64,000 bases of DNA from Cupriavidus taiwanensis LMG 19424 (lineage in GTDB: Bacteria; Pseudomonadota; Gammaproteobacteria; Burkholderiales; Burkholderiaceae), in NCBI RefSeq assembly GCF_000069785.1, contig NC_010530.1, positions 304,001 to 368,000 on the forward strand, given 5' to 3'. The notes beneath the pieces are model-generated. The model ran no database searches, was not told the origin of the DNA, and saw only the letters and a program-made list of their open reading frames with translations. Shown in pieces: positions 6,583 through 47,560 of the stretch. The first letter of the stretch is position 1; every line of letters starts with the position of its first letter. The translations under genes were made by a program, and so were the position numbers.

Positions 6583-6592
6583 GGGCGGGAAT

Positions 6593-6613
6593 GGCCGGCA
6601 TCTGTCGGCCTTT
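6593..6613 (+). terminator. Weak candidate terminator after flgL
   Basis: A GGCCG / CGGCC stem with an 8-base loop (6593-6597 with 6606-6610) is followed by only three T residues. It lies 10 bases after the flgL stop and before the convergent MerR-TPR gene, so position is right, but the stem and T-tract are both short. Confidence 0.35.
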
Positions 6614-6643
6614 GCTGTCCCCTCACCCCGGTTCAGGGCAGGC

Positions 6644-7465
6644 TCACCGCGAGCGATCCAGCTTCCGATACTGGTTGAAATGCCGAAGCGCCTTCTGGAT
6701 ATGCCCCAACTCCTGATGCAGGCGCGCGGCGTTGTAGTGCGCGTCGGAATCGCCCGGGGCAAGTTCGATGCTGCGCTCATAGGCAGCCAGGGCAGCCTGG
6801 GTTGCCCCGGTATCCTCCAGCGCGACGCCCAGGTTGAAGTGCAGCTCGGGCTCGTCCGGCAGCACGGCCAGCGCGGATTCATAGAGCAAGATGGCTTCGT
6901 CCAGCCGTTGCTGGTCGGCAAGCAGGCAGCCGAGGTTGAGGTAGGCGTCCAGCATCGCTGGATAATGAACCACCGCGCGCCGGTAAGCCGCTTCGGCGCC
7001 GCGGGCATCGGTCGGTTCCAGCCTGAGGCCCTCGGCAAGCGCGTCGTCGGCAGCGGCGTAGGCTGAGGCTTCCCGGGTCAAGGCCATGACGCGGACATCG
7101 GCGTCGTCTCGTGTGCCGAAGTCCATGAGCCGCTGGCCTGTTTCCACGATCCAGTCGCCGTGTCGGTCCCGGGCCGACACCTTGCCGCTGCATGCCGAAA
7201 TGCGTACCGCGGACAGGTGCCGGTCTGGCTTGAGCCGTTCGAGATGGCGCAGCGCGCGCAGGATGCGCGCGGGCCCGATATGCGCGCGGTGCAAGGAGTC
7301 GGCGGTGCGGATCAGCACCACGTCCTGGAAGGAAAAGACGTGTTCGCCGCGCGGGCCGCGCGTTGGCTGCACCAGGCCGGCTGCGACCAGGCTGCCGATC
7401 AGCCGCCTCGACACGCCCAGGCGCGCCTCGAGGTCTCGCGTGCTGAGCCCGCCGCCGCGCTTCAC
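6644..7465 (-). CDS. MerR-type HTH protein with TPR repeats, in the ku-ligD operon
   Basis: The 273-residue protein joins an N-terminal MerR-like winged helix (about 7-75: LSTRDLEARLGVSRRLIGSL, then GEHVFSFQDVVLIR) to a C-terminal TPR array (about 145-265: three TPR-like helix pairs such as MLDAYLNLGCLLADQQRLDE and PELHFNLGVALEDTGATQ). The HTH suggests DNA binding and the TPRs suggest a protein partner. It starts at a GTG that overlaps the TGA of ku as GTGA, so it is very probably translationally coupled to ku and co-transcribed with ligD-ku. No end-joining role for this fused protein can be read from sequence alone; a transcriptional regulator or an NHEJ accessory factor are both possible. 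Confidence 0.85.
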   Translation of the reverse strand: MKRGGGLSTRDLEARLGVSRRLIGSLVAAGLVQPTRGPRGEHVFSFQDVVLIRTADSLHRAHIGPARILRALRHLERLKPDRHLSAVRISACSGKVSARDRHGDWIVETGQRLMDFGTRDDADVRVMALTREASAYAAADDALAEGLRLEPTDARGAEAAYRRAVVHYPAMLDAYLNLGCLLADQQRLDEAILLYESALAVLPDEPELHFNLGVALEDTGATQAALAAYERSIELAPGDSDAHYNAARLHQELGHIQKALRHFNQYRKLDRSR

Positions 7466-8355
7466 GCTGATTTCTTAGTGGTCCGTCGGATCGGCGTGGG
7501 CTCGGCCGCCGCGCCGCGCCGGGCGGACTTGCGGGCCGGTGGGGCGGCTGCGGCAGCCTTGCCCTTGGCCGCGGCGGTCCCCTTCTTCGACAGGCTGGCG
7601 CGCAGCGCGTCCATCAGGTCGATCACCTGTCCGCCGGCGCCGTCTTCCACCGGCTCGGGCGCGACGATGTGCTTGCCGGCGATCTTTGCATCGATGGCGG
7701 CCAGGATCCTGGCCTTTTCCTCGTCCTTGTACTGGGTGGGGTCGTATTCTTCCTCGGAGGCCTGCTCGATCAGCTGAATCGCCAGCTTGAGCTCGGCCTC
7801 GGACACCGCCACCTCTTCGATATTCAGTTCGGCGATGTTGCGCACTTCATCCGCGAACAACAGCTGCTGGAACACCAGCCCGCCTTCCACCGGGCGGATC
7901 TGGACCACGTGGGACTTGCCCTTGGATGCCCATTTGGCGATGGCGCAGCGTCCGGTCCGCGACATGGCCTCGCGCAGCAGGCTGTAGGGCTTGCCGCCAC
8001 GCTTGTCGGGGGCGATGAAGTAGGCCTTGTCGTAGAAAAGCGGATCGACGCTTTGCTCCGGTATGAACGCGACGATATCGACCATATGGCTGGCGCTTTC
8101 TTCCAGTGCCTTGAGCTCGTCGGGCGCGAACGTGACAAAGCGGCCTTTCTCGAACTCGTAGCCCTTGATCATGTCGGCACGCTCGACAACCTTCTGGGTC
8201 TGTTCGGAGATGTACTGCTGCCTCACGCGCGAGCCGTCCTTGCTCAGCAGGTTGAAGCGCACGGCGGAACTGCTTTCGGTGGCGGTATAGAGCTTGACCG
8301 GTATCGACACCAGACCAAACGACAGCGACAGGGAAGCGAGCGAGCGGGCAGCCAT
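7462..8355 (-). CDS. ku: Ku protein, DNA-end-binding factor of bacterial NHEJ
   Basis: Bacterial Ku forms a homodimeric ring that threads onto double-strand break ends and recruits LigD. The 297-residue product begins MAARSLASLSLSFGLVSIPV followed by KLYTATE, the canonical N-terminal strand set. It carries EVERADMIKGYEF-like and DPTQYKDEEKARILAAIDAK segments typical of the C-terminal part of the ring. The tail after about residue 255 is rich in Lys, Arg and Ala, as in many bacterial Ku proteins, and probably aids DNA binding. ATG 8355 was chosen because GTGGAG lies six bases upstream; an in-frame GTG at 8367 has no better site. It lies 30 bases after ligD and overlaps the MerR-TPR gene. Confidence 0.94.
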   Translation of the reverse strand: MAARSLASLSLSFGLVSIPVKLYTATESSSAVRFNLLSKDGSRVRQQYISEQTQKVVERADMIKGYEFEKGRFVTFAPDELKALEESASHMVDIVAFIPEQSVDPLFYDKAYFIAPDKRGGKPYSLLREAMSRTGRCAIAKWASKGKSHVVQIRPVEGGLVFQQLLFADEVRNIAELNIEEVAVSEAELKLAIQLIEQASEEEYDPTQYKDEEKARILAAIDAKIAGKHIVAPEPVEDGAGGQVIDLMDALRASLSKKGTAAAKGKAAAAAPPARKSARRGAAAEPTPIRRTTKKSA

Positions 8356-8385
8356 TGGATACTCCACATTGGGTTGCGCCTGGAT

Positions 8386-10923
8386 TCAGCTTAAGCGTTC
8401 GATGGCCTCCGTCAAAGTCTGGCGTGTCTGCCAGTACGACTGCCAGGGGTCCGCCAGCTGGAAGCTCAGGTACTCGCGCGCATCGCGGATAGTCCACTGC
8501 GCGCCGCTTTTCAGCCTGGAAAGTTGTTCCCACGACACCGGCATGGACACGCCAAGGCCCGGCCGCGCACGTGCCGAGAACGCGGCGGCGGTGGTCTGCG
8601 AGAAGCCGTTGCGCAGGTAATCCACGAAGATGCGCCCCTTGCGGTTGGCGGCGCCGGAGCGGGCGGTGAAGCGCTGGGGCAGCGTGGCGGCCAGGTGCTT
8701 GACCGCCGCATGTGAAAACGCCTTCACTTCGTCGTAGGATCGCCGCGGTGCCAGCGGCACGACGACATGCAGGCCCTTGCCGCCGCTGGTCTTGAGCCAG
8801 CACTGCAGGCCCAGTTCGTCCAGCAGCGTGCGCACCAGCATGGCGGCTTCCAGCATGCTCTCCCACGCCACGCCTTCGCCGGGGTCCAGGTCGAAGATCA
8901 CCCGGTCCGGATGGTCGATATCGCGCGCGGTGGAATTCCAGGTGTGGAACTCCACCACGTTCATCTGGGCGGCCGCGACGATGGCTTCGGGCGAGTCGGC
9001 GGTCAGCAGGGCCGCGTGGCCGGGCCACAGCGAGACCGGCTGCTCGGTGAGGCCGGGCATGGCCGTCTCGGCATGCTTCTGGAAGAACGTGGGCGCGTCG
9101 ATGCCCTCCGGCGCGCGCACCAGTGAGAGCGGGCGATCCGCCAGGTGCGGCAGCATCACGGCGGCGACGCTCTCGTAGTAGCGCACCAGTTCCACCTTGG
9201 TAATACCTTTGGACCGGTCGATCACCCGCTCGGGATTGGTGACCTTGATGGCGGCAACGCCATGCGGCGTGACCGCGGTCTGCACCGGCTCGCGCCGGAT
9301 CGACTTGACCGTGTGGTCCGTGCGCAGCCCTTTGAATGACGCGTGGCGAACCTGCCCGTCCGGTGTCCACTCGGTGAACTCCACCTCAGCGACCAGCTTG
9401 GGCCGGACCCAGCGGACCACGGCAGGCCGTCGGCCGCCCCAGCGTCCGCTGCCGCGGGCCTCGGTCGCAAACGGACTGTCCTTCACTTTCAATGCCGCCA
9501 GGCGCTTGCGCAAGTCCGTGGCGGTGGCACTGTCCCAGCCGGTGCCCACGCCGCCCGCATAAACCAGGGCGCCATCCGCGTAGACGCCCAGATACAGCCT
9601 GCCCACCTCGGCGGCGGCGCCTTCGCGGTCCGAGAATCCGCCGATCACGAACTCCTGGCGCAGCTTGCATTTCGCCTTCAGCCAGCTCTGCGTGCGAGCC
9701 GAGACATAAGGGGAATCGGCGCGCTTGAAGATGAGGCCCTCCAGGCCGAGCCGGCATGCCGCCTGGAACATCTGCGCAGGCGGGGCGTCGAAGGCTTCGC
9801 TGAAGCGCACCCGCTCGGAGCGGCCGGCAACCAGTGCGGCGAGCTTCGCCCGGCGCTGCATCAGCGGCACCTCGCGCAGGTCGCGGCCTTCCCAGTAGGG
9901 CAGATCGAAGGCGAAGTACACGATCGCCTCATGGCGATGCCCGTCGATGGCGTTCTGCAACGCGTTGAAATCCGGCATGTCGTCGCGCAGCACGACGATC
10001 TCGCCATCCAGCCAGCCCTGCGAGATATCGAGCTTCTCGATTTCCGCCGCCAGCGAGATCAGCCTGCGCGTCCAGTCATGCCCGTTGCGGGTGAACAGCG
10101 TTGCCCGGGCATCGTCGATCCTTGCCAGGATCCGGTACCCGTCGAACTTGGTTTCGATGATCCAGCCGGTGCCGGAAGGGAGGGTGGGCGAGAGCGTGGC
10201 AAGCTGGGGCCGCAGCTTTGCCGGCAATGGCGCGCGCGGCGCATGCCGCATGGCTTGGTCCGGATCATCCTGGTCCGGGACGCCGGAGGCCTCGGGCACG
10301 GCGCCCAGCGGCCTGGCGATGACGCTGTCGGGCAGCGCGGCCAGGACATCGAATTCTGCCAGCGGACGCGCCCAGGCGTCGCGCTTCTTGAAGAGTATCC
10401 ATTGCTCGGACCTGTCGTCCGGTTTGGCGATGCGCACCAGTTCCCAGCGACCCGTCAGCTTTTCGCCGTGCAGGTCAAAGACCAGCTTGCCGGCGGCCAT
10501 GCCGTCATGCGGGTCGCCCACCGGCGTCCACGTGCCGCGGTCCCAGACGATCACCGACCCGGCGCCATACTGGTTCGGCGGGATCTCGCCTTCGAAGCCG
10601 GCATAGTCGAGCGGGTGGTCTTCGACATGGACGGCGATGCGCTTCTCGGCCGGGTCGTAGCACGGTCCCTTTGGCACCGCCCAGCTGAGCAGCACGCCGC
10701 CGAGCTCGAGCCGGAAATCGTAGTGCAGGCGCCTGGCCCAGTGCTTCTGGACGACGAACCGCAGCGGCCCCGCTTCCTGGCGCGGCCGGGGCGGCGCTGC
10801 CTTTCCGCTGGGTTCGGGCGTGACGCCGAAATTCCTCTTCTTGCTGTAACGCTCGAGGCCGCCAGCGGGCGCCGTGCCGCCATGCCTGGCGGCGACGGTA
10901 GCGCGGGGCTTGCGGCCTGCCAT
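8386..10923 (-). CDS. ligD: ATP-dependent DNA ligase LigD (phosphoesterase-ligase-polymerase)
   Basis: LigD processes, fills and seals breaks held by Ku. Domain order is phosphoesterase, ligase, polymerase, the Pseudomonas arrangement rather than the mycobacterial one. The N-terminal 3'-phosphoesterase domain (about 30-195) includes HWARRLHYDFRLELGG and AVPKGP. The central ligase (about 230-530) contains ETKFDGYR with the adenylated Lys, and later EGLIFKRADSPY. The C-terminal primase-polymerase (about 550-845) has the metal-binding DLDPGEG and the FQKHAE motif. ATG 10923 gives MAGRKPRATVAARHGG, a basic N-terminal tail; a GTG at 10983 is possible but less convincing. The product is 845 aa. It is the first gene of the ligD-ku-MerR/TPR operon. 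Confidence 0.94.
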   Translation of the reverse strand: MAGRKPRATVAARHGGTAPAGGLERYSKKRNFGVTPEPSGKAAPPRPRQEAGPLRFVVQKHWARRLHYDFRLELGGVLLSWAVPKGPCYDPAEKRIAVHVEDHPLDYAGFEGEIPPNQYGAGSVIVWDRGTWTPVGDPHDGMAAGKLVFDLHGEKLTGRWELVRIAKPDDRSEQWILFKKRDAWARPLAEFDVLAALPDSVIARPLGAVPEASGVPDQDDPDQAMRHAPRAPLPAKLRPQLATLSPTLPSGTGWIIETKFDGYRILARIDDARATLFTRNGHDWTRRLISLAAEIEKLDISQGWLDGEIVVLRDDMPDFNALQNAIDGHRHEAIVYFAFDLPYWEGRDLREVPLMQRRAKLAALVAGRSERVRFSEAFDAPPAQMFQAACRLGLEGLIFKRADSPYVSARTQSWLKAKCKLRQEFVIGGFSDREGAAAEVGRLYLGVYADGALVYAGGVGTGWDSATATDLRKRLAALKVKDSPFATEARGSGRWGGRRPAVVRWVRPKLVAEVEFTEWTPDGQVRHASFKGLRTDHTVKSIRREPVQTAVTPHGVAAIKVTNPERVIDRSKGITKVELVRYYESVAAVMLPHLADRPLSLVRAPEGIDAPTFFQKHAETAMPGLTEQPVSLWPGHAALLTADSPEAIVAAAQMNVVEFHTWNSTARDIDHPDRVIFDLDPGEGVAWESMLEAAMLVRTLLDELGLQCWLKTSGGKGLHVVVPLAPRRSYDEVKAFSHAAVKHLAATLPQRFTARSGAANRKGRIFVDYLRNGFSQTTAAAFSARARPGLGVSMPVSWEQLSRLKSGAQWTIRDAREYLSFQLADPWQSYWQTRQTLTEAIERLS

Positions 10924-35216: not shown

Positions 35217-36002
35217 TCAGCAGCCGTGGCGCGTGACGCTTGCGTCCGGCAGCGATACGGCCAGCGCCGCCCGGAAGGCTGCCCCGACCTCCAGGTCCAC
35301 ACAGGTCCACCCTGACAAGGCGGTGCCATGGTGCGAAGCCCGCCAGCGGCCCGCGCCGCGGCCCCGGTCGTCTTCCGTCGTGTACGCGGTGGGATCGGCC
35401 GCCAGGCCGGTGCCGAGCGCCTTCAGTAGTGCCTCCTTGCGCGTCCACAGGCTTAGCAGGGCGTCGGCCGAACCGGTCCGCGCGCGCGCGAGTGCCTGCG
35501 CTTCCTGCGCCGAAAATATGCCGCGTCCAAGTCCGGGGACGTCATGTCCGCCGCCACGCCGTTCCACATCCACGCCGAGGCAGCAATCCAGGGCAAACGC
35601 CAGCAGCGCCGTGCCGTCGGTCTGAGACACGCTGAATGCCAGCCCTGCTTGCGGCCATTGCAGCACCGGCTTGCCGAATGCCGTAACGGCAAAGCGCAGC
35701 GCTTCGGGCTGGCAGCGCAGATAGCCGCCGATCAGCCAGCGCAGCAGACCGCGCCGCGCGATATAGGCATTGCAGTGCCTGGGGTGCCGGTAGGCCAGGG
35801 CGCGCGCGCGCTCGTCCGGCGCAAGCGTTTGGGCCAGCCGCGCGCACGCCGGATTGACCTGCGCGTCATCCAGCATCCATACCTGTACGGCGCCGTCCGG
35901 CAACGCCAGCCGCTGCGGTTCGGGCAGTACCAGCGGCGCGGCAGCTTGCGCGTGCCGTGCGGCCAGGCCGTCATGCTGCATGCCAGGCACGGTCCGAGGC
36001 AT
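35217..36002 (-). CDS. 4'-phosphopantetheinyl transferase (Sfp type)
   Basis: A 261-residue enzyme that moves the phosphopantetheine arm of CoA onto a carrier-protein Ser. The Sfp-type signatures are clear: the Mg-binding LGVDVERRG (about 150) and LWTRKEALLKALGTGL (about 200). FSVSQTDGTALLAFA stands at the expected FNxSH-like strand. The start ATG 36002 overlaps the stop of the upstream A-T-TE gene as ATGA, so the two are coupled. The obvious client is the carrier domain of that neighbour. The frame remains open far upstream, but that part is antisense-like noise inside the A-T-TE gene. Confidence 0.9.
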   Translation of the reverse strand: MPRTVPGMQHDGLAARHAQAAAPLVLPEPQRLALPDGAVQVWMLDDAQVNPACARLAQTLAPDERARALAYRHPRHCNAYIARRGLLRWLIGGYLRCQPEALRFAVTAFGKPVLQWPQAGLAFSVSQTDGTALLAFALDCCLGVDVERRGGGHDVPGLGRGIFSAQEAQALARARTGSADALLSLWTRKEALLKALGTGLAADPTAYTTEDDRGRGAGRWRASHHGTALSGWTCVDLEVGAAFRAALAVSLPDASVTRHGC

Positions 36003-39000
36003 CACGCGTGCGCAAGCCCCTCGTCCAGGATCGCCGCCACCGCCTGCAGGTTCGGTTCTTGGACCAGGTCGAAATGGCTGCAAGGCACCTCCGCAATGGT
36101 CAGGCCGCCGAGCGCGACGCGCCGCCACAGCGACAGCGGGTCGCCGCGCTGCTGCTGCCGGATGGCGGCGCGCAGGTAGAGCACCGGGCCGGCGTGATAC
36201 GGCCGCGGCCGATAGGTCGTCATGGCGCGGCCCATGGTTTCGCGCACCAGCCGCAGCGCCGGCGGCAGCGATTCGGTAAAGGCATCGGGCCGGCATGTGA
36301 TGCGGTCGCGGCGCATGCCCACGCCTTCGGCGGCGCGGCGCAGTGCGTACCGCAGGTAGCGCAGGCGCTGTGCCGCCGTCACCGCGCGCAGCTTGCGCAA
36401 CTGCCAGGCGGGATAGTTCCAGCAGTAGCGCATCCAGGTGCGCCATGGCAGGAAATGCTCGCAGACATAGGTGTCGAGCAGGCACAGCAGCTCGACGCGC
36501 TCACCCGCGCGGGACAGTTGTTGCGCCATCTCGTACGCGACCAGCCCGCCGAAGGAGTAGCCGGCCAGCGCGTACGGGCCGCTCGGCTGCAAGCTGCGTA
36601 TCTGTTCGATGTAGCTGGCCGCCATATCCTCGACGCGCCGCTGGGTCGGCTGTTCGCCGTCGAGGCCGCGTGCCTGCAGGCCGTAGACCGGGCGCGAAGT
36701 CCGCAGCGCATTGACCATGCCCCAGCACTCCATCACCGAGCCGCTCGCGCCATGCACCAGGAACAGCGGCGAGCCGGTGCCGCCGCGTATGGGCACCAGG
36801 TTGGGCGAAGGCCGCGGACACGCGGCCTCTTCGATCGCCGCGGCCAGGCCCGCAATGGTGGGCGCGAACAGCATCGTGGCCAGTGGAATCGTGCGTCCGG
36901 TGGATTGGTGCACGTCGGCCAGCAGGCGTGCGGCCAGCAGCGAATGTCCGCCGAGGTCGAAGAAATTGTCGTCGCGGCCGATCGGGGCGAAATCGAACAG
37001 TCGTTCCCACAGGGCCTGCAAATGGCGCTCCAGTTGCTCACGCGATGCGCCGGGGGCGGGCAATTCGCGCGCGGCCAGGTTCAGCGCCGGATGATGGCGG
37101 ATGGCGTCGAGGCAGCCGGGATTGCGCAACGCCGCGGCATTGCCCACCGGCAGGCCGTTGACGGCATTGCGTGCTGCCGCTTCGGAGAGTTTGCCGTTAT
37201 GCGTGGCCGGCAGCTCGGGTACGGCTAGGATGCGGTCGGGCACATGCGTGGGCGAGGCGCGGCGCGCCAGGTCGCGGCGCACGCGGGCGGCCAGCGCGCC
37301 GGTCAGCGCGACGCCATCCTGCAGGACCAGCAGCAGCACCATGCGCTGGTCGTACCGCTCAGCGTGGGTGCGGTCGGGCGGTGCCGTGTGCGCGCGCTGC
37401 TCGACCACCATCGCCTCGCGGATCTCCGGGATATCGCGCAGCACCCGGTAGATCTCGCCCGGTCCGACATTGACGCCGCGGACATTGAGCACGCCGTCGG
37501 AGCGGCCATGCAGCCGCGCCGTCCCTTCGGGCGGGAATTCGATCCGGTCGCCGTGGGTCCACACCCCCGCGTTGGCCGAGAAGTAGGCCTTGTGGAAGCC
37601 CTTGCCGTCCACGTCGCCATAGAAGCCGAGCGGACGCGACGGGAACGGGTTCGCGCACACCAGATCGCCGATCCCGCTGGTGGGCGCGCCGTGTTCCCAC
37701 GCCTGCACATCGAGCGCCAGGCTCTTGCATTGGGCTTCACCCGCATAGACCGGCAGGTTCGGGTTGCCCAGCACAAAGCAGCCGAGGATGTCGGTGCCGC
37801 CGCAGATCGACTGCAGCGGCAGCGGCTTGACGTGATCGCGCACCCATTCGAACTGCGCGTCGAACAGCACCGATCCGGTCGACATCATCGCGCGCAGGGC
37901 GCCCAGGTCGAACTGCTGGCCGGGCACCAGTCCCGCGTCCTCGCACATCTTCAGGTAGGCGGGACTGGTGCCGAACACCGTGACACGCTCGTCCGCGACC
38001 AGCCGCCACAATGCGTCGACCGTGGCGATCGGGCCGTCATAGGTGACGATCTCCACCCCCGAGGCCAGCGACGACAGCTGCCAGTTCCACATCATCCACG
38101 CACAGGTGGTATGGAAATACAGGCGATCGCCGGGCCGGAGATCGGAGTGCAGGCGGTGCTCCTTCAGGTGCTCCAGCAGGCTGCCGCCGGCGCCGTGCAC
38201 GATGCACTTGGGCTTGCCGGTGGTGCCGGACGAAAACATGATGAAGAGCGGATGGTTGAACGGAAAGCGACGCCAGGCAAAGTGCCCGGCGTCGCCGCGG
38301 CGGATCAGTTCGCCCAGCGCATGGACGGGCTGGCCGACGGTGGCCGGCAATACACCGTCGTCGAGCTGGACGATGCCCTCCAGAGACGGCAGCGCGGCCG
38401 CCAGGCCGGCGACGTTGTCCGCCAGCGAGAGGCCGGTGTCGAAGGGGCGCTGCGCGGTATGGGCAAGCAGCAGCCGCGGCGCCAGTGGCGCGAAGCGATC
38501 GAGCAGGGTCTCGACGCTCATCTCGGCCGCTGCGGTCGACAGCGTTGCGCCGAGCGCGGTCACGGCCAGTGCCGCAACCACGGCTTGCGCGTCGTTGCGC
38601 ATCACCGCGACCACGCGATCCCCTTCGCGCAGACCCAGTTGCGACAAGGCATGTGCCGCGCGCGCGACGCGGTCGCGCAGCTCGCCGCGGGTCAGCCGTT
38701 CGCGCCGGCCATCGGCGTGGCAGGCGGTCAGCGCCGGTGCGTCGGGCCCCGCAACCTCCAGCCCGAGCAGGTTTTCAGCATAGTTCAGCAGCACGTTCGG
38801 GAAGAAGCGGGCATGCTCGCAGTCGTCGCCGACGCAGACCGGCTCGGGGCTGCCCGACCACGCCAGCCCCTGCGACCACTGCAGGAAGCAGCGCCAGAAT
38901 GTCCGGTATTCCCGTACCGAGAAATCGTGCAGCGCGCCGTAGCGGTGGAAGGACTGCCCGGTGCTCGCCTGCAGGGCCGCCGTGAACGCGGTCATCTGCG

Positions 39001-39097
39001 ACGCCACGGCGCGCTCGGGCGAGCTGCTGTAGATTGGAGTGCGACCCTGGTTGACGCTCGGGCAGAACGAGGCGTCCAACAAATAAAATCGATCCAT
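36002..39097 (-). CDS. Single-module adenylation-carrier-thioesterase protein (acetoacetyl-CoA synthetase-like A domain)
   Basis: A 1031-residue, three-domain protein. The A domain (about 1-640) has AMP-binding FIMFSSGTTGKPKC and resembles acetoacetyl-CoA synthetases in layout (SICGGTDILGCFVLGNPNLP, then VCANPFPSRPLGFYGD), not amino-acid NRPS domains. A carrier domain (about 665-745) holds DDNFFDLGGHSLLAARL, with Ser about 718 as the phosphopantetheine site. A type I thioesterase follows (about 765-1031) with the nucleophile in AGYSFGGLVAYEMA and His in CSHFDLV. There is no condensation or ketosynthase domain. AGGAGC precedes ATG 39097. It is coupled to a PPTase. It probably activates, tethers and releases or dimerises a small acid; the product is unknown. 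Confidence 0.9.
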   Translation of the reverse strand: MDRFYLLDASFCPSVNQGRTPIYSSSPERAVASQMTAFTAALQASTGQSFHRYGALHDFSVREYRTFWRCFLQWSQGLAWSGSPEPVCVGDDCEHARFFPNVLLNYAENLLGLEVAGPDAPALTACHADGRRERLTRGELRDRVARAAHALSQLGLREGDRVVAVMRNDAQAVVAALAVTALGATLSTAAAEMSVETLLDRFAPLAPRLLLAHTAQRPFDTGLSLADNVAGLAAALPSLEGIVQLDDGVLPATVGQPVHALGELIRRGDAGHFAWRRFPFNHPLFIMFSSGTTGKPKCIVHGAGGSLLEHLKEHRLHSDLRPGDRLYFHTTCAWMMWNWQLSSLASGVEIVTYDGPIATVDALWRLVADERVTVFGTSPAYLKMCEDAGLVPGQQFDLGALRAMMSTGSVLFDAQFEWVRDHVKPLPLQSICGGTDILGCFVLGNPNLPVYAGEAQCKSLALDVQAWEHGAPTSGIGDLVCANPFPSRPLGFYGDVDGKGFHKAYFSANAGVWTHGDRIEFPPEGTARLHGRSDGVLNVRGVNVGPGEIYRVLRDIPEIREAMVVEQRAHTAPPDRTHAERYDQRMVLLLVLQDGVALTGALAARVRRDLARRASPTHVPDRILAVPELPATHNGKLSEAAARNAVNGLPVGNAAALRNPGCLDAIRHHPALNLAARELPAPGASREQLERHLQALWERLFDFAPIGRDDNFFDLGGHSLLAARLLADVHQSTGRTIPLATMLFAPTIAGLAAAIEEAACPRPSPNLVPIRGGTGSPLFLVHGASGSVMECWGMVNALRTSRPVYGLQARGLDGEQPTQRRVEDMAASYIEQIRSLQPSGPYALAGYSFGGLVAYEMAQQLSRAGERVELLCLLDTYVCEHFLPWRTWMRYCWNYPAWQLRKLRAVTAAQRLRYLRYALRRAAEGVGMRRDRITCRPDAFTESLPPALRLVRETMGRAMTTYRPRPYHAGPVLYLRAAIRQQQRGDPLSLWRRVALGGLTIAEVPCSHFDLVQEPNLQAVAAILDEGLAHA

Positions 39098-39884: not shown

Positions 39885-40382
39885 CTAGCGGATCCTGTCG
39901 AAGCCGCTGGCGGCCCAGCGCTCGGCGCTGTCGCGCGTCAGGCGGAAGTCGGGCCGCACCTTGATGGTGGCCAGCACCTCGCCAAAGGCATCCTCGGCCG
40001 TGAGCGTGCCGAAGGGCTCGAACTCGTCGGGCGTGATGGCGAGTTTCACGGTCACGCTGCCGGCTTCGGCCTCGATGCTGACCTGCTTGTTCAGTTGCGC
40101 GTGCAGCTGCTGCTCGTGGCGCCGGATCACTTCCGAGGCGGTCTTGACCAGGGTCTGGTGCGCGGTCGCATCCAGCGGCTTGGGGTCCACCTTGTTGCGG
40201 CCCATGGTCCAGGGCCCGACCAGCGCCGGCTCGGCGCTGCCGTCGCGGATCATCTCCACCGCCCAGCCTTCTCCGTCCTCGTTCTTGATCACGCGGGCGG
40301 TCCAGCCCTTGTCGCGCCACAGGCGCGGTTCGTGGATGGCTGGGACTTCGTGCCCGGGCAGCGCGTCTTCGGTGTGTGGCAT
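39885..40382 (-). CDS. Conserved-looking hypothetical protein
   Basis: A 165-residue soluble protein without signal peptide or membrane helices. I do not recognise a named domain. Protein-like features include WRDKGWTARVIKNEDGEGWA near the N-terminus, GPWTMGRNKVDPKPLDATAH, and VSIEAEAGSVTVKLAITPDE in the second half. The mix of alternating hydrophobic strands and acidic turns suggests an alpha-beta fold. ATG 40382 was preferred to a TTG one codon upstream. It lies 82 bases downstream of the AraC-acetamidase fusion on the same strand and could be in its transcript, but no functional link is visible. Confidence 0.65.
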   Translation of the reverse strand: MPHTEDALPGHEVPAIHEPRLWRDKGWTARVIKNEDGEGWAVEMIRDGSAEPALVGPWTMGRNKVDPKPLDATAHQTLVKTASEVIRRHEQQLHAQLNKQVSIEAEAGSVTVKLAITPDEFEPFGTLTAEDAFGEVLATIKVRPDFRLTRDSAERWAASGFDRIR

Positions 40383-40464
40383 CAATCTCGTGGTACGGGT
40401 CGGGGAACCCGCGAGAATACTATAGGGCCCGGCAGCAGGCCCGCGCGCCCTCCGCCGCAGACCC

Positions 40465-42876
40465 TCACGACCGCGTAAATAATGCCTTCCTGATGATGGC
40501 GTGGACGCCCCAGTTGCCGTTGACCACCTGCGTGATGCCGAAATCCACCGCCACCGAGATCAGCGTGACCGCCTCGTCCTCGCTCAGCCCCTTGACGGTC
40601 ATCAGGAAGCGGCGCGTCTTGCGGAAGGCATCGCGCATGGCGTCGTCCAGCGTGGACTTCAGGTAGATGTGGCTTTGCGCCATCTGGCCCAGCTCGGTCA
40701 GGTGGTTGGGCGAGCTGAAGCCATGCAGGATCCATTCGTCGGCGGTCTCCACCAGCGGATAGCTCAGGTCCGCGAACGGCGCGCCGCGCTCGATCAGGGT
40801 GCTCTTGTGCAGGATCAGCTGGAAGTCGCCGGTCAGCGAGCATTCGATGGCGGTGCCGCACAGTTCGGAATCGCCCTGCGAGGCATGTGGATCGCCGATC
40901 GACAGCAGCGCGCCCGGCACCGCCACTTTCAGGTAGACGCTGGCACCGCGCGTGACGCGCCAGTTGTCCAGGTTGCCGGCGAAGCTGGAGGGCGGGATCG
41001 AGTCGATCAGCCCGTCCTGCGCCGGCGCGACGGCGATCACGCCGAAGTGCGGACGGATTGGGATCTCGATATCGCGCAGCACGTCGTGGTTCTTGACGAT
41101 GGTGTCGTGGTCGACCGGAACGCCGGGATAGTCGATGGTGGGATGCAGCACGCCGAACGGATCGCGCTGCGGCGTCCAGCGGAAGCTGTAGACGGCGCGG
41201 GCGCAGCCGTCGGCGCGTTCGCAGTCGATCTCGAACACTGTCACCACCTCGCGCTCGCGCGGCTCGGTCAGCATGTCGCGGTAGTGGAAGCCCCACCACG
41301 TCGCGGCGTTGCTGCCGAAGGCGCGGCCGGCAAAGCGCGGGTTGGCGCACGGACGCGGGCGCACGTCGAGGATGCGCACCTCGAGCACGTCGCCGGGCAT
41401 GGCGCCGCGCACCGCGACCGGGCCGGTGCAGATATGCACGCCGAAACCCTCGCCGGCGCCGCGTCCGTAGACCGAGGCGTCGATGGGGCCGGCGCCGCGG
41501 CGGTCGACGTTCTTCTGCTCGGCGGTCCAGTGGAACACGCTTTCCGCGCCGGGGTCGCCGTCGATCATGCGCTCGCGGTCGTCCGAGGCATGCTGGGTCA
41601 GCGTTTCGATGGTGACGGTGTCGCCCGACATCACTTCCAGCACGGGCGGCAGCTCGTGGCTCAGGTAGCCCCAGTGCACGGTCTTGTCGGTGGCCTGCAG
41701 CCAGTGGTGCCGGCCTTCCGGGCGGGCCGCGTGCGAGCGGGCCTGGGTGATGGGCACAACGGACGGCGCGGGCAGCGCGCGTGCGCGCGCAATGTCGTTG
41801 GCCGGGGCGCGCTGCTGCGCGGGACCACGCCTGGCATCCGGCGGCAGCCCGCGCGACACGTTCAGCGGCGGGCGCTGCGCGGGCATGCCCACGGCCTGCT
41901 CGCGGTACGCGCGCGGCGAGATCCCGAACTGCTCGCGAAACGCGTGGCTGAAGTGCGAGGGATCGTTGAAGCCCCAGCGATAGCAGATGTCGGAGACCGA
42001 CAGCTTGTCGTACTGCGCATTGGCCAGGTCGGCGCGGCATCGTTCCAGCCGGCTGGTGCGCAGGTAGGCGGAAAAGCTGCTGCCGGATTTCTCGAACAGC
42101 TTCTGCAGGTAGCGGGCCGACATGTGTTCGTCGGCGGCGATGGCGGCGAGGCTCAGCTCGGGCTCGGCCAGGCGCGCATCGATGCGGCTGCAGACCCGCG
42201 CGAACACCGCCGCGCGCGACGGCGTCATGTCCGCCGGCGCGCTCGGCTGGTTGTCCGCCAGGGCCGCGCCCAGGCAGGCGACGATGGTGCTGTCGAAGGG
42301 CTGCACCGCGCGGTCGTCGGCGGACACCAGGGTGTCGATGCTGGCCGCCATGGACTGCAGCAGGCGCGCAAACAATTCCGCCGCATCGCCGCCCAGCACC
42401 AGCGCGGAGCGCGGCAATGGCGCGGTGATGCGCGCGTTCAGCAAGGCCTGGCCGATATGCACGGTCAACAGCCGGAACGCGGTGGTCAGCGCCACCTTGC
42501 GCGCCGCGTGTTCGGGCACGCAGACCACCTGGCCGGGACGCAGCGGCTCGCGCAGGTCCGGGCTGGCGAGGTGCGCTTCGCCCTCGGTCAGCATCAGCAG
42601 CATCAGGCCGCGGCCGTCACCGGCGGTGATCGCCAGTGTCTGCGGCACCGACGCGATGCAGGTCAGTCCGATGCCGGCGGGGGTGGTGCGCGACTGGATC
42701 GTGCCGTGCAGGGTGTGGTCGGCGCACAGGCTTTCGCACTGCAGGCGCGCGGCCCTGAGTTCGTCGCGCCATGCGGCGCCGCGCCGGTTGCGCGGATACG
42801 CTTCGGTGGAAAAACGCTGCAGATGCAATGGTGCCTCCCTGGCGTCTGACTGCCACAGCGCAGGCGCGGCGGACAT
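40465..42876 (-). CDS. Fusion of AraC-family regulator and acetamidase/formamidase
   Basis: One uninterrupted 803-residue frame joins two normally separate proteins. Residues about 15-200 form an AraC-type ligand-binding region (AraC_binding_2-like). Residues about 220-325 form the double HTH: LSLAAIAADEHMSARYLQKL and ISDICYRWGFND-like SDICYRWGFNDPSHFSHAFR. After a linker rich in Pro, Arg and Ala, residues about 392-803 are an FmdA/AmdA-type amidase, with TDKTVHWGYLSHELPPVLEV, the metal/substrate motif LLSIGDPHASQGDSE and the C-terminal AVDFGITQVVNGNWG. Both halves keep family motifs. The enzyme would hydrolyse a short amide to ammonia and acid. It is the last gene after an acetamidase and two XapX genes, so it may sense and process the same amide. 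Confidence 0.85.
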   Translation of the reverse strand: MSAAPALWQSDAREAPLHLQRFSTEAYPRNRRGAAWRDELRAARLQCESLCADHTLHGTIQSRTTPAGIGLTCIASVPQTLAITAGDGRGLMLLMLTEGEAHLASPDLREPLRPGQVVCVPEHAARKVALTTAFRLLTVHIGQALLNARITAPLPRSALVLGGDAAELFARLLQSMAASIDTLVSADDRAVQPFDSTIVACLGAALADNQPSAPADMTPSRAAVFARVCSRIDARLAEPELSLAAIAADEHMSARYLQKLFEKSGSSFSAYLRTSRLERCRADLANAQYDKLSVSDICYRWGFNDPSHFSHAFREQFGISPRAYREQAVGMPAQRPPLNVSRGLPPDARRGPAQQRAPANDIARARALPAPSVVPITQARSHAARPEGRHHWLQATDKTVHWGYLSHELPPVLEVMSGDTVTIETLTQHASDDRERMIDGDPGAESVFHWTAEQKNVDRRGAGPIDASVYGRGAGEGFGVHICTGPVAVRGAMPGDVLEVRILDVRPRPCANPRFAGRAFGSNAATWWGFHYRDMLTEPREREVVTVFEIDCERADGCARAVYSFRWTPQRDPFGVLHPTIDYPGVPVDHDTIVKNHDVLRDIEIPIRPHFGVIAVAPAQDGLIDSIPPSSFAGNLDNWRVTRGASVYLKVAVPGALLSIGDPHASQGDSELCGTAIECSLTGDFQLILHKSTLIERGAPFADLSYPLVETADEWILHGFSSPNHLTELGQMAQSHIYLKSTLDDAMRDAFRKTRRFLMTVKGLSEDEAVTLISVAVDFGITQVVNGNWGVHAIIRKALFTRS

Positions 42877-42925
42877 GGCGGTCCGCCGCGCTGCGCAACG
42901 TTGCTGGCGAAGGCCCGGCGATGCC

Positions 42926-43117
42926 TTAGCCGATCAGCAGCTGCCCCCGCATCGCGGCTACCAGGACAAAGCCGGCGAAGGTGCCGAAGATGGCGAAGAT
43001 GCCGCCCAGCACGTTCGGGGCCGGTATCGGCGCCCGTACCGCAGTGTAAAGAAGACCCGTCACCAGGCCAACGGCCGCGGCCTGCAGTTCAGTACTGCCC
43101 AATGCGATTTCCACCAT
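42926..43117 (-). CDS. XapX-domain small membrane protein, copy 2
   Basis: A 63-residue protein with two hydrophobic helices around the XapX signature APIPAPNVLGGIFAIFGTFA. XapX proteins are small inner-membrane proteins of unknown function, often near amidase or nitrogen-metabolism genes. ATG 43117 is supported by GGGGGA just upstream; an ATG at 43135 is also open. It follows the first XapX gene by 31 bases and precedes the AraC-acetamidase fusion. Confidence 0.8.
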   Translation of the reverse strand: MVEIALGSTELQAAAVGLVTGLLYTAVRAPIPAPNVLGGIFAIFGTFAGFVLVAAMRGQLLIG

Positions 43118-43148
43118 GTCATTCCCCCAACGCATGAGTTGCGGTGAT

Positions 43149-43358
43149 TCAGCGGCTTGCCGGCGGCCGCCCGAAGGCGATGGTCCGGCGCCACGCGTGC
43201 ACGATCAGGTAGCCGATGTACGTGAACAGGATCGCGCAGATCCCGCCGGTGACATTCGGCGCCGGAATCGGCAGGTTGAGCCAGGAATACAGCGTGCCGG
43301 TCACCAGCCCGACCACCAGCGCGACCAGTTCGTTGCGGCCTATGTAGACGTATTGCAT
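43149..43358 (-). CDS. XapX-domain small membrane protein, copy 1
   Basis: A 69-residue protein with two hydrophobic segments and the signature NLPIPAPNVTGGICAILFTY. It is clearly homologous to the neighbouring 63-residue protein but diverged, so an old tandem duplication is likely. GGAG lies seven bases before ATG 43358. It sits 26 bases after the acetamidase gene, which suggests co-expression with it. A role in amide or ammonia passage would be a guess. Confidence 0.82.
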   Translation of the reverse strand: MQYVYIGRNELVALVVGLVTGTLYSWLNLPIPAPNVTGGICAILFTYIGYLIVHAWRRTIAFGRPPASR

Positions 43359-43384
43359 GCGTGATCTCCGTGGAAGTTGCCGGC

Positions 43385-44410
43385 TCAGCCCCTGGCCTTG
43401 GGCGGGAAGATGGTGCGCGGCATGGTGCAGTGGATGCCCTGGGTGCCGTCGACCACCTGCGTCACGCCGAAGTCCGCCGACACGCTCATCAGCGAGTAGG
43501 CATCGTCGCGCGACAGGCCCTGCTGTTCGGTCAGCAGGTGGATCATGTCGCGGGCCGCGTTCCTGCCGGCTTCGTCGAGGTCTTCATGGAAGCCGTGCAC
43601 GACCCAGCAGTCCGGCGTCTCCAGCAGCGGCGAGGGGAAATGGAAGTCCTTGCGCAGCACGATCTGGAACAGCACGTTCAGCGAGGCCTCGATGGCGGTG
43701 CCGCTGATTTCGCCGTCGCCTTGCGAGATATGCGGGTCCCCGATCGAGAACAGCGCACCGTCGACCTGCACCGGGTAGTACATGGTCGCGCCCGCGCCGA
43801 TGCGCCAGTTGTCGATATTGCCGCCGTGCAGTCCTGGCTCGACGGTGGTGACGCGGCCGCGCGCGTCGGGCGCGACGCCCGCGGTGCCCAGGTGGGGCCG
43901 CACGGGAACGCGCACGCCGGCCAGCGCCGGCTGGCGGCAGCATTCGCGCTCGTCGACCACCTTGCCGGGAATGGTCAGCTTGCCGGGATAGTCGTAGGCG
44001 TAGAGCGCATGCGCGGTGTTGGAGGGCTGGTCCAGCTCGTAGATGGTGACGCGCTCCTTCTCGAACTCCTTGTACAGCTGGCCCCAGCTCGCGGCGACAT
44101 TGGCGCCGAAGCGGAAGCGCGGAATCATCTGCAGGTAGCGCACTTCCAGCACATCGCCCGGCTTCGCATCCTCGACATAGATCGGGCCGGTCATGATGTG
44201 CACGCCCGGGTGGCGGTCGTCGTGCGGGACCTTGCGGTAAATCTCGCGGATGGCGTCGTCCATCATCAGGTCGGGGGCATCGCCGGCGTGGTGGGTCACC
44301 GCTTCGGCGCGGATCAGGTCGCCGCTCTTCACGGTGAGCGCGGGCGCCTGGGTGGCATCGAAGTAGCCCCAGTGGATGGTCTCGGGGCGGGCGGGCAGGT
44401 CGTGCAGCAT
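43385..44410 (-). CDS. Acetamidase/formamidase family protein
   Basis: A 341-residue stand-alone FmdA/AmdA-type amidase. It hydrolyses formamide, acetamide or a similar short amide to ammonia and the acid. Motifs are TIHWGYFDATQAPALTVKSG at the N-terminus, GVHIMTGPIYVEDAKPGDVL, and the central SIGDPHISQGDGEISGTAIE, with conserved Asp, His and Gln of GDPHxxQGDGE. The C-terminus reads SADFGVTQVVDGTQGIHCTM. AAGGAG precedes ATG 44410. It is first in a minus-strand operon with two XapX genes and the AraC-acetamidase fusion, whose enzyme half is its paralogue. Confidence 0.9.
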   Translation of the reverse strand: MLHDLPARPETIHWGYFDATQAPALTVKSGDLIRAEAVTHHAGDAPDLMMDDAIREIYRKVPHDDRHPGVHIMTGPIYVEDAKPGDVLEVRYLQMIPRFRFGANVAASWGQLYKEFEKERVTIYELDQPSNTAHALYAYDYPGKLTIPGKVVDERECCRQPALAGVRVPVRPHLGTAGVAPDARGRVTTVEPGLHGGNIDNWRIGAGATMYYPVQVDGALFSIGDPHISQGDGEISGTAIEASLNVLFQIVLRKDFHFPSPLLETPDCWVVHGFHEDLDEAGRNAARDMIHLLTEQQGLSRDDAYSLMSVSADFGVTQVVDGTQGIHCTMPRTIFPPKARG

Positions 44411-44663
44411 GGTGGTCTCCTTGGTTTTTTTTCCGCCGTATCCACGACCGCATCCACAGCCGTTCAGCGGGTGAGCGGCTGGCTTCGACGAGGCGGTTCG
44501 GGATACTGGCGATGCGTGGCAGGCGGGTGGGGCCTGTTGCCGCCGGCGAGGCTTGCGTCGCCGCGGTGAGTCAATACTAGGGATGGCGCGTGCGCGGGCA
44601 GTAGGGCGATTCCCCCCAAACTCTTGTGTTGCCGCGCACTAAGGTAAACCCGCTGTACGCCGC

Positions 44664-44803
44664 AAATGCCGTTCGGTGTAGGGATCCATCACTACCGTCA
44701 TTCCCGCGCAGGCGGGAATCCAGCGTCTTTCACGTCCCCTCCGGGGAGAAAGTCACTGGGTTCCCGCCTGCGCGGGAACGACGTCGTTAACTGAACGGCA
44801 TTT
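44664..44803. mobile_element. MITE-like element with terminal inverted repeats and flanking duplication
   Basis: A 140-bp non-coding element bounded by perfect 11-bp inverted repeats, AAATGCCGTTC (44664-44674) and GAACGGCATTT (44793-44803). Immediately outside, the 11-bp direct repeat CTGTACGCCGC occurs at 44653-44663 and 44804-44814, as a target duplication would. Inside, a second inverted pair of about 29 bp (44697-44725 and 44754-44782, three mismatches) carries TTCCCGCGCAGGCGGGAA, a core common in intergenic repeats of these bacteria. No transposase is encoded. Confidence 0.65.
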
Positions 44804-44852
44804 CTGTACGCCGCCGCCATCTGGCTGGCGGCGGTCGAGTGTTAATTTTTGA

Positions 44853-44867
44853 TTGACACCGTGTCAA
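44853..44867. promoter_or_regulatory. Palindromic operator candidate upstream of the CoA transferase
   Basis: TTGACAC-C-GTGTCAA is a perfect 7-bp inverted repeat around one base, in an AT-richer stretch about 100 bases before the CoA-transferase start. It contains a consensus -35 hexamer TTGACA, so a repressor bound here could block transcription. The cognate regulator is not identifiable. Confidence 0.4.
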
Positions 44868-44969
44868 CGATCCATGGAATTGTCGACCAGGCCTTGACAG
44901 TGCAAAATCCGGGCGAAGCCCGGGCCGATCCATCGCCTGCCCGAGAGACACACACAAGGAGATCGCCGC

Positions 44970-46184
44970 ATGGCTGATATCAACAATTCCCCGCGCCTGC
45001 CGCTGGCGGGCGTGCGCGTGCTGGACCTGTCCCGCGTGCTGGCCGGACCGATGTGCACGCAGGCGCTGGGCGACCTGGGCGCGGAGGTGATCAAGGTCGA
45101 ACACCCCGGCCGCGGCGACGATACGCGCGACTGGGGCTTGCGCGTGGGCACGCGCAATACGGCCTACTTCAACAGCGCCAACCGCAACAAGCAGTCCATC
45201 GGCATCGACCTGCAGCAGCCCGAAGGCCAGCGCATCGTGCGCGAGCTGGCGGCCAAGTGCGACGTGCTGGTGCAGAACTTCAAGTTCGGCGGCATCGACA
45301 AGATGGGGCTGGGCTACGAGGCGCTGAAGGCGATCAACCCGGGCCTGGTCTATTGCTCGATCACCGGCTACCGCAGCAACGGCCCCGAGGCGACCCGTCC
45401 CGGCTACGACCTGGTGGTGCAGGGCGAGGCCGGCCTGATGGCGCTGAATGGCGAGGAGGGCCAGGGGCCGCTGAAGTTCGGCACCGCGGTGGTGGACATG
45501 TTCACCGGCATGTATTCGGCGCAGGCCGTGCTGGCCGCGCTGTACGACCGCCAGCGCACCGGCCAGGGCCGCCACGTGGAAATGGCGCTGTACGACTGCG
45601 GCCTGATGATCACGGCCTACTACGGCCTGGAGGCGCTGCTGATGGGCGAGGACCCGCCCAAGTACGGCAACGCCCATCCGTCGATCGTCCCTTACGGCGT
45701 GTTCGACGCGGCCGATGGCCCGCTGGTGATCACGGTCGGCAACAACGCGCAGTTCCAGCGCTTCTGCAACGAGGTGATCGAGCGCCCGGACCTGGCCGCC
45801 GACGAGCGCTTCGCCACCAATACCGGCCGCTCGGCCAACCGCCAGGCGCTGCTGCCGGAACTGCGCGCCGAACTGGCGCGCCGCCCGCGCGAGCTGCTGC
45901 TGGCGCGCCTGAGCGCCGCCGGCATTCCGTGCGGCGAGGTGCTGGGGCTGCTCGAGGCGCTGCGCTCGCGGCGCTCGGCCGAAGCCGGCCTGCTGGCAGA
46001 GCTGCCCAATCCGGAAACCGGCCGTGTGGAAGTGCTGGCGCCGCCGTACCGGCTCGATGGCGAGCGCGTGCCGGTGCGCGCCGCGCCGCCGCTGCTGTCG
46101 CAGGATACGGAGCGCGTGCTGGGCGACCTGCTCGGCATGGATGCCGGGCAGGTGGCTGCGCTGAAGGCTGCGGGGGTGGTGTAA
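44970..46184 (+). CDS. CaiB/BaiF-type (family III) CoA transferase
   Basis: A 404-residue enzyme that transfers CoA between an acyl-CoA and a carboxylic acid. Family III marks are LAGVRVLDLSRVLAGPMCTQ, LGDLGAEVIKVEHPGRGDDT, and NRNKQSIGIDLQQPEGQRIV. DVLVQNFKFGGIDKMGLGYE includes the region before the catalytic Asp, and PGYDLVVQGEAGLMALNGEE contains the expected catalytic Asp in GYD. AAGGAG precedes ATG 44970 by eight bases. The substrate cannot be read. It stands alone, convergent with the histidine kinase. Confidence 0.9.
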   Translation: MADINNSPRLPLAGVRVLDLSRVLAGPMCTQALGDLGAEVIKVEHPGRGDDTRDWGLRVGTRNTAYFNSANRNKQSIGIDLQQPEGQRIVRELAAKCDVLVQNFKFGGIDKMGLGYEALKAINPGLVYCSITGYRSNGPEATRPGYDLVVQGEAGLMALNGEEGQGPLKFGTAVVDMFTGMYSAQAVLAALYDRQRTGQGRHVEMALYDCGLMITAYYGLEALLMGEDPPKYGNAHPSIVPYGVFDAADGPLVITVGNNAQFQRFCNEVIERPDLAADERFATNTGRSANRQALLPELRAELARRPRELLLARLSAAGIPCGEVLGLLEALRSRRSAEAGLLAELPNPETGRVEVLAPPYRLDGERVPVRAAPPLLSQDTERVLGDLLGMDAGQVAALKAAGVV

Positions 46185-46222
46185 GGGCCGGCGCACGCCG
46201 CCGGTGGCTGGCCGGCGTGGTG

Positions 46223-47560
46223 CTACGCCGCGTCAGCCTGCTGTGGCTCCGGCCATTTTGCCTTGCGCGGAAAGCGCATGTCGAACTCGGTAAACACGTG
46301 TTCCTCGGAGCGGCAGCTGATGCCCGCGCCCCAGCTGCCCAGCACCTTCTGGCAAAACGCCAGCCCGATGCCGGTGCCGCGATGCGCGGGGTAGGAGAAG
46401 AACGGCTGGAACATCCGCGCCAGCACCTGCGGCGGCACGCCCGTGGCGGTGTCGCGGAACACCACGTGGACCGCATCGGGTTCGACCTCGCAGCGGATAT
46501 GGATGGTGCCCTTGCCCGCGCGCCGGATCGCTTCCAGCGCGTTCTTCAGCAGGTTGGTCGTGACCAGGCCGAACAGCTGCGCGTTGCCCATCACGTAGGC
46601 GGGGCCGGGCAGGTCGACCGTGACCCGTTCCATGTCGCCCGCTTCGAACGGAAAGCGGCCGACGGCGTCGCGGATCACCTCGCCCACCTCGAACAGTGCC
46701 TGCGTGGCGTTTTCCGGGTTCTTCGAGTTGGCCACCAGCAGCTCGATGCTGTTGCTGATATGGGCCAGGTCTGACTCCATCCGGGCCACCGCCTGCATCA
46801 GGCCGTCGCGCTGCGGCGTGTCCTGGTCCAGCGCCGACGGCAGCCGGGCCTTCAGGCCGCGCGCGGTCATGGCCAGGCTGGTCAGCGGCGTGCGCAGCTC
46901 GTGCGCGACGGTCGCCAGCGCCGCGGCCATGCCGCGCCGCTTCTGCTCGGCCAGCAGCTGGCGGTCCATCTTGATCACCACCAGTACCGCGATCACGAAG
47001 CCGATCACCGGCAACTGCAGCAGGATAGGCTCCCACGGGATGCCGCCCATGGAATTGCCCGCCAGCACAAACAGCGCAATTGCCGCCGCCGCGCCCGCGA
47101 ACAGGGCAATGGTGGCGAACGCGGTGTTGAAGTGATACAGGATCACCACGGCGATGATCACCGATTCGGCCCACACCATCGAGCCGCCGTTCTCCAGGTA
47201 GAAAAAGATGAAGGCGAACGGCAGGCCTACCGTGATTGCAAAGAGCGCATAGGGCGGCAGCCAGCGCCGGCCCGAGAATGCCGAGGCGAACAGCAGCGGC
47301 ACGAACAGCGCGGTGCAGGCCAGCCGCAGCCACAGGTTTTCATAGGGCTGCGGGAACACATAGGACCAGATCACGTAGTACAGCGGGTGCCCCACCACGC
47401 CCAGCGCGCCCACCATCTGGATCCGCCGCAGGCGGATGACGCTTTCCTCGTCCAGCAGCGTGGCCCGCGCGGCGGTCTCGAACACGGCCTGCCACGCCTT
47501 GCGGGCCAGCCCGGCAAGGGTGGTGCGGCTGTCTTCCGCTTGCGCTACCTTTGCATCCAT
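46223..47560 (-). CDS. Membrane sensor histidine kinase, LqsS/CqsS-like
   Basis: A 445-residue kinase with about six hydrophobic helices in residues 50-210, little periplasmic exposure and no HAMP or PAS domain, followed by a kinase core. The phospho-His lies in ATVAHELRTPLTSLA (about 230). ATP-binding boxes are NLLKNALEAIRRAG, FRDTATGVPP and GTGIGLAFCQKVLG. Unlike Vibrio CqsS it lacks a C-terminal receiver domain, so it resembles Legionella LqsS. It lies 52 bases after cqsA on the same strand; the two probably form signal maker and receptor. The response regulator is not in the window. ATG 47560 was kept as the first methionine. Confidence 0.87.
   Translation of the reverse strand: MDAKVAQAEDSRTTLAGLARKAWQAVFETAARATLLDEESVIRLRRIQMVGALGVVGHPLYYVIWSYVFPQPYENLWLRLACTALFVPLLFASAFSGRRWLPPYALFAITVGLPFAFIFFYLENGGSMVWAESVIIAVVILYHFNTAFATIALFAGAAAAIALFVLAGNSMGGIPWEPILLQLPVIGFVIAVLVVIKMDRQLLAEQKRRGMAAALATVAHELRTPLTSLAMTARGLKARLPSALDQDTPQRDGLMQAVARMESDLAHISNSIELLVANSKNPENATQALFEVGEVIRDAVGRFPFEAGDMERVTVDLPGPAYVMGNAQLFGLVTTNLLKNALEAIRRAGKGTIHIRCEVEPDAVHVVFRDTATGVPPQVLARMFQPFFSYPAHRGTGIGLAFCQKVLGSWGAGISCRSEEHVFTEFDMRFPRKAKWPEPQQADAA

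Follow-up and report, generated by a model that had tools for sequence, protein, structure and literature searches.

The analysed window, a stretch of 64,000 nucleotides of Cupriavidus taiwanensis LMG 19424, contains on its minus strand an operon with the gene order amidase, xapX, xapX and fusion, the fusion being the last gene. The latter is a single minus-strand frame in which an AraC-type regulator is joined by a loose linker to a complete FmdA/AmdA-type amidase. The features are listed below, with residues numbered in the 803-residue frame.

43385..44410, minus strand: separate type A amidase, first operon gene, 341 aa (FmdA_AmdA, 1.1e-31)
43147..43358, minus strand: xapX 1, small membrane-type protein, 69 aa (TIGR03510 XapX, 1.6e-19)
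42926..43117, minus strand: xapX 2, 63 aa (TIGR03510 XapX, 3.3e-16)
40465..42828, minus strand: AraC-amidase fusion CDS, probable TTG start at 42828, 787 aa
42876, minus strand: ATG start of the longer frame of the same fusion, 803 aa, as given by the first-pass annotation
42241..42705, minus strand: cupin-type sensor/dimerisation domain of the fusion, residues ~58-212
41887..42213, minus strand: AraC-type DNA-binding domain (double HTH) of the fusion, residues ~222-330
41719..41886, minus strand: fusion linker, residues ~331-386, of low model confidence and variable length
40465..41718, minus strand: FmdA/AmdA-type amidase domain of the fusion, residues 387-803
41593..41595, minus strand: codon of Gln428, a fusion-specific replacement of a His

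The single frame of the first-pass annotation was retained, but its ATG start was judged unlikely and the TTG codon was preferred. The regulator half matched HTH_18 with 80.8 bits (threshold 33.6) as well as the AraC fold, and the fusion has the cupin-type N-terminal domain of AraC/XylS regulators. The best NCBIfam match of this half was FeaR (NF007243), with 115.4 bits over residues 84-328, which is below the equivalog cut-off of 199. FeaR-kind regulators share with the fusion the cupin-like N-terminal domain and the double HTH, but they stop after the HTH whereas the fusion goes on with an amidase of about 415 residues. This second half matched PF03069 (FmdA/AmdA amidases) with 91.5 bits, the gathering score being 27. 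In addition, the fusion and the partner amidase scored 55.9 and 65.2 bits, respectively, with the FmdA equivalog NF045496, both below its cut-off of 500. The partner, preceded by the ribosome-binding site AAGGAG, shares about 35% identity with the fused half. In public annotation the fusion protein goes under one of two names, 'acetamidase/formamidase family protein' or 'AraC family transcriptional regulator'. A search for regulatory RNA in 40000-46500 gave no Rfam match that reached the gathering score, and no tRNA was found in the 64-kb window.

Distribution and ancestry of the fusion

Altogether 53 full-length fusions, including that of the window, were aligned. They come from alpha-, beta- and gammaproteobacteria, their identity falls to about 46%, and 29 of them are less than 95% alike in the amidase part. 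The fusion is thus an old, conserved family spanning three classes, and the AraC regulator-amidase fusion recognised in the first-pass annotation is real. Its description there as uncommon holds insofar as a full-length copy was present in only 2 of 399 genomes sampled from the order, but it does not suit a family of such age and spread. Within Cupriavidus, 16 of 60 genomes hold a full-length fusion, and the scan of named genomes and plasmids detected it in Paraburkholderia, Pandoraea, Burkholderia, Variovorax, Thiomonas, Pseudomonas, Nitrincola, Methylophaga, Bradyrhizobium, Caballeronia, Novosphingobium and rhizobia.

It was also considered that a sequencing error or frameshift could have merged two adjacent genes, as the annotation of the Rhizobium johnstonii fusion as two CDS would seem to favour. 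However, 53 full-length fusions read through, more than half of them less than 95% alike, and the linker, which is 48 to 92 residues long in 48 fusions, always keeps the frame despite its 15 different lengths. This refutes a frameshift or annotation artefact as the account of the family, and for the protein studied here such an origin is extremely improbable; the orthologue comparison that the first-pass annotation had called for revealed no frameshift at the junction. In the predicted structure of the fusion the linker had a pLDDT below 50 at residues 330-385. The two R. johnstonii CDS lie in different frames and cover the fusion at 6451-8860 of that locus.

In the amidase tree of 62 sequences, the fusions (30) fell on one side of a branch supported by 93/94 and by 92% of 200 bootstraps, a value of 93/94 being short of the tree program's star; 62 of 94 rows were used, after dropping 32 near copies, and plasmid-borne fusions were left out. 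As the fusion amidases stand on one side of this unstarred branch, a single origin of the family appears likely from the sequences. In the same tree, the fused halves adjoin the stand-alone amidases of type B. To look for an unfused ancestor beside a type B amidase, a profile of the AraC half was run, and it gave no match at an E-value of 1e-3 in ten regions around stand-alone type B amidases (L110-L119) nor in L105. AraC-only relatives were present in two other loci, L068 and L069, neither of which holds a matching amidase; that of L068, from Acinetobacter puyangensis (7965-8933), has 323 aa and a profile E-value of 2e-80. Partly broken remnants of the fusion gene were observed in the Cupriavidus loci L106, L107 and L108 and also in genomes G046 and G047. 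The type A amidase was not found in the genomes with remnants, except for a piece in G047, and this association points to repeated loss of the operon. Among the matches listed from the open-licence literature, none described such an AraC-amidase fusion.

Candidate operator of the amidase operon

The region upstream of the type A amidase (44411-44969) contains three elements of interest, all on the strand of the operon.

44623..44649, minus strand: candidate operator GTTTACCTTAGTGCGCGGCAACACAAG, with the conserved core GTGCG-N7-ACAAG at 44623-44639
44599..44611, minus strand: second conserved element AATCGCCCTACTG, read by eye from a gap-free alignment of 14 loci
44574..44579, minus strand: -10-like TAGTAT, read by eye

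The block upstream of the type A amidase could be aligned without gaps in 14 loci from four genera and two further genomes. Each of 20 xapX-type fusion loci contained a single copy of the strict form of the site, in every case upstream of the amidase and in the same orientation, and none was found in the 45 other stretches scanned (1.06 Mb in all); two further xapX loci end before the place of the site. As the strict pattern was drawn from these loci, the scan measures specificity and not the rate of discovery. In the 60 Cupriavidus genomes, the strict site gave 12 matches in 12 genomes and the reversed control none. All 12 hold the type A amidase, one of them in part; the fusion-bearing genomes of the genus without the strict site are G003, G025, G028, G038 and G049. 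The long form of the site has one match in the genome of the window, and the relaxed core had 2 matches there, compared with 7 for the reversed control pattern, which restricts useful searches to the longer site or a weighted motif.

In Methylophaga and Nitrincola the core precedes the type B amidase, and in Thiomonas-like genomes it precedes the importer genes, with unchanged spacing in both cases. A weight matrix was built from ten sites and tested on the 300 bases preceding the partner operon in 20 held-out loci. The best upstream site ranked first in its whole locus in 9/20 loci, among the top three in 15/20 and among the top ten in 16/20, compared with at most 3 first and at most 4 top-three ranks for 200 column-permuted matrices; these counts exclude L052 and L127, for which the stretch does not reach the operon start, the sites of several loci had been seen before the 300-bp regions were fixed, and two of the loci, L100 and L101, are nearly identical. 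The held-out loci without a good site were L058, L102, L125, L126 (rank 6) and L128. The fusion is the sole regulator known as common to the operator-bearing loci. The conserved block together with the held-out motif result therefore makes it very likely that the fusion regulates its own operon through the candidate operator. Control of the adjacent amidase operon, as the first-pass annotation had supposed, agrees with the place of the fusion as last gene of that operon and of the candidate within the upstream region that it had proposed for binding tests (44411-44969).

An inverted-repeat element (cgttcccgcgcaggcgggaa ... ttcccgcctgcgcgggaatgacg) lies upstream of the candidate operator, at 44695-44780, and is lacking in the upstream sequences aligned from L025 and L032. 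On the plus strand, a gene for a family III CoA-transferase (44970-46184) is divergent from the operon, with the operator region between them; it was not found at that place in L027 and L028.

The amidase half and the proposed switch

Conservation of the amidase core, claimed in the first-pass annotation from the window alone, extends to the family. Residues N635, D637, D662, H664, Q667, D669, E671 and E678 are kept in 53/53 aligned and 12/12 added fusions, and each of these eight positions is also found in 30/30 canonical PF03069 members, from which we infer that the shared residues are catalytic. Counting all the core positions examined, eleven were kept in 12/12 added fusions and ten of the eleven in 53/53. 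In five Cupriavidus genomes the fused amidase had a dN/dS ratio of 0.047, the partner amidase one of 0.043 and the HTH one of about 0.052; in ten genomes the ratios of the fused amidase, HTH, cupin part and linker were 0.061, 0.095, 0.25 and 0.31, respectively. The kept core and this constraint favour a working active site in the amidase half, as judged from the alignments.

Residue 428 is Gln in 63/65 fusions (52/53 aligned and 11/12 added), and residue 429 is His in 53/53. By contrast, residue 428 is His in 60/60 stand-alone amidases, namely 20/20 of type B, 31/31 of type A and 9/9 further partners. The type B enzymes are related to the acetamidase 3b9t of Methylobacillus flagellatus ('twin-arginine translocation pathway signal protein'), which differs from the fusion in standing alone and in being exported, according to its name; an export-like RRxF motif is present in some type B amidases and absent from others. 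In addition, Ala takes the place of Gly at residue 615 in 51/53 and 9/12 fusions. The family-wide Gln428 speaks for an altered site in the fused amidase. The segment with residue 428 has no counterpart in 30 aligned canonical family members, and no active-site description usable for placing this residue was found in the open-licence literature.

A separate amidase accompanies the fusion in 50 of 56 loci, within the stretch fetched. Four of the six loci without it (L026, L031, L051 and L054) are cut by contig ends, and L031 shows a piece of the partner; L127 has a partner piece at the edge of the stretch. In L102 no separate amidase gene lies within 14 kb. The partners are of two types, A being about 35-38% and B about 55-64% identical to the fused half. 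Because the partner is of two distant types and the fused type is constant, the fused half does not simply substitute for the partner.

The neighbours of the fusion loci point to amides as the substrate class. Genes for the alpha and beta subunits of nitrile hydratase, its accessory proteins and a UrtA-type binding protein are found in Pseudomonas typographi, nitrile hydratase genes lie beside the Caballeronia fusion of L122, and polar amino-acid/amide-type ABC importers and RidA are also among the neighbours. NitR and other AraC-family regulators serve nitrile/amide genes, and members of the family have been described beside nitrilase genes (PMC8955678) and upstream of an amide-induced amidase gene (PMC11573777); in these descriptions regulator and enzyme are separate genes, while here they form one protein.

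We consider that the fusion probably controls amide-using genes while sensing or consuming their compound. It would bind GTGCG-N7-ACAAG upstream of the amidase gene, a step supported by comparison, and would activate the operon amidase-xapX-xapX-fusion, activation rather than repression being suggested by membership of the AraC family and by a site that adjoins a -10-like element. The cupin domain, whose fold is evident, would dimerise and may bind a ligand. The tethered amidase would bind the inducing amide and probably hydrolyse it slowly, so that the switch would both read its own signal and help to end it, and the separate amidase would carry the bulk of the turnover. The substrate would be a small amide, in some species nitrile-derived. 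We are rather confident that the amidase half takes part in signal handling, as binder or as hydrolase, and within that role signal-ending turnover is somewhat likelier than binding alone. The whole reading, in which an AraC-family switch controls its own amide-catabolic operon and its amidase half reads or hydrolyses the inducer, is held with modest confidence; the cupin domain could instead be the sole sensor.

GabR/MocR regulators consist of a GntR HTH fused to an aminotransferase fold. By analogy only, they resemble the fusion, with its AraC HTH and amidase fold, in joining an enzyme-derived domain to an HTH protein whose target genes deal with the same class of substrate; in them the enzyme domain replaces the sensor whereas the fusion has the cupin domain as well. 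Following this precedent, the amidase half might be a ligand-binding domain without turnover. The nearly constant presence of a separate amidase and the replacements at residues 428 and 615 would agree with it. However, all core residues are kept in 65/65 fusions, non-catalytic binders often losing some, and the constraint on the amidase half equals that of the working partner, so that we regard pure binding as unlikely. A plain bifunctional protein, with the cupin domain as sensor and the amidase as a second pathway enzyme tethered for co-expression, would in turn account for the strong constraint, for an AraC architecture complete with its own cupin domain, and for L102, where the fusion has no local separate amidase. 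But a second amidase would be redundant in nearly all loci, the linked arrangement has been maintained across three classes, and Gln428 is fixed in fusions only; this alternative seems more doubtful still.

The amide-responsive switch may be carried further. As a tentative proposal, which we see as possible rather than probable, the transcription factor would destroy its own inducer in cis, and His428Gln would slow the turnover and so act as a built-in timer. Firing would then be proportional to the amide supply and self-resetting, and circuit and operator would have travelled together across three proteobacterial classes. When a regulator contains a domain derived from an enzyme, this domain usually takes the place of the sensor. 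Here a complete amidase under strong constraint has joined a regulator with a sensor fold of its own, and it persists across three classes next to a separate enzyme of the same kind. Should the amidase half prove active, the family would be a clean test case for signal-consuming regulators. With its defined candidate operator and target operon, the family also provides a regulator that could be put to use in amide and nitrile catabolism.

The family also gives a handle on XapX, a small membrane protein for which we know of no assigned role; no relevant title on XapX, or on fused or trigger enzymes, was among those listed from the open-licence literature. Of the 56 fusion loci, 22 hold a pair of xapX genes but lack an importer, counted as ABC permease-ATPase, 18 have the importer without xapX, 16 lack both and none combines the two, a pattern confounded by kinship. 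XapX might be an amide channel in place of the ABC importer. Elsewhere in the window, a minus-strand frame of 1031 aa (36002-39097) appears by eye to comprise acyl-CoA synthetase, carrier and thioesterase domains.
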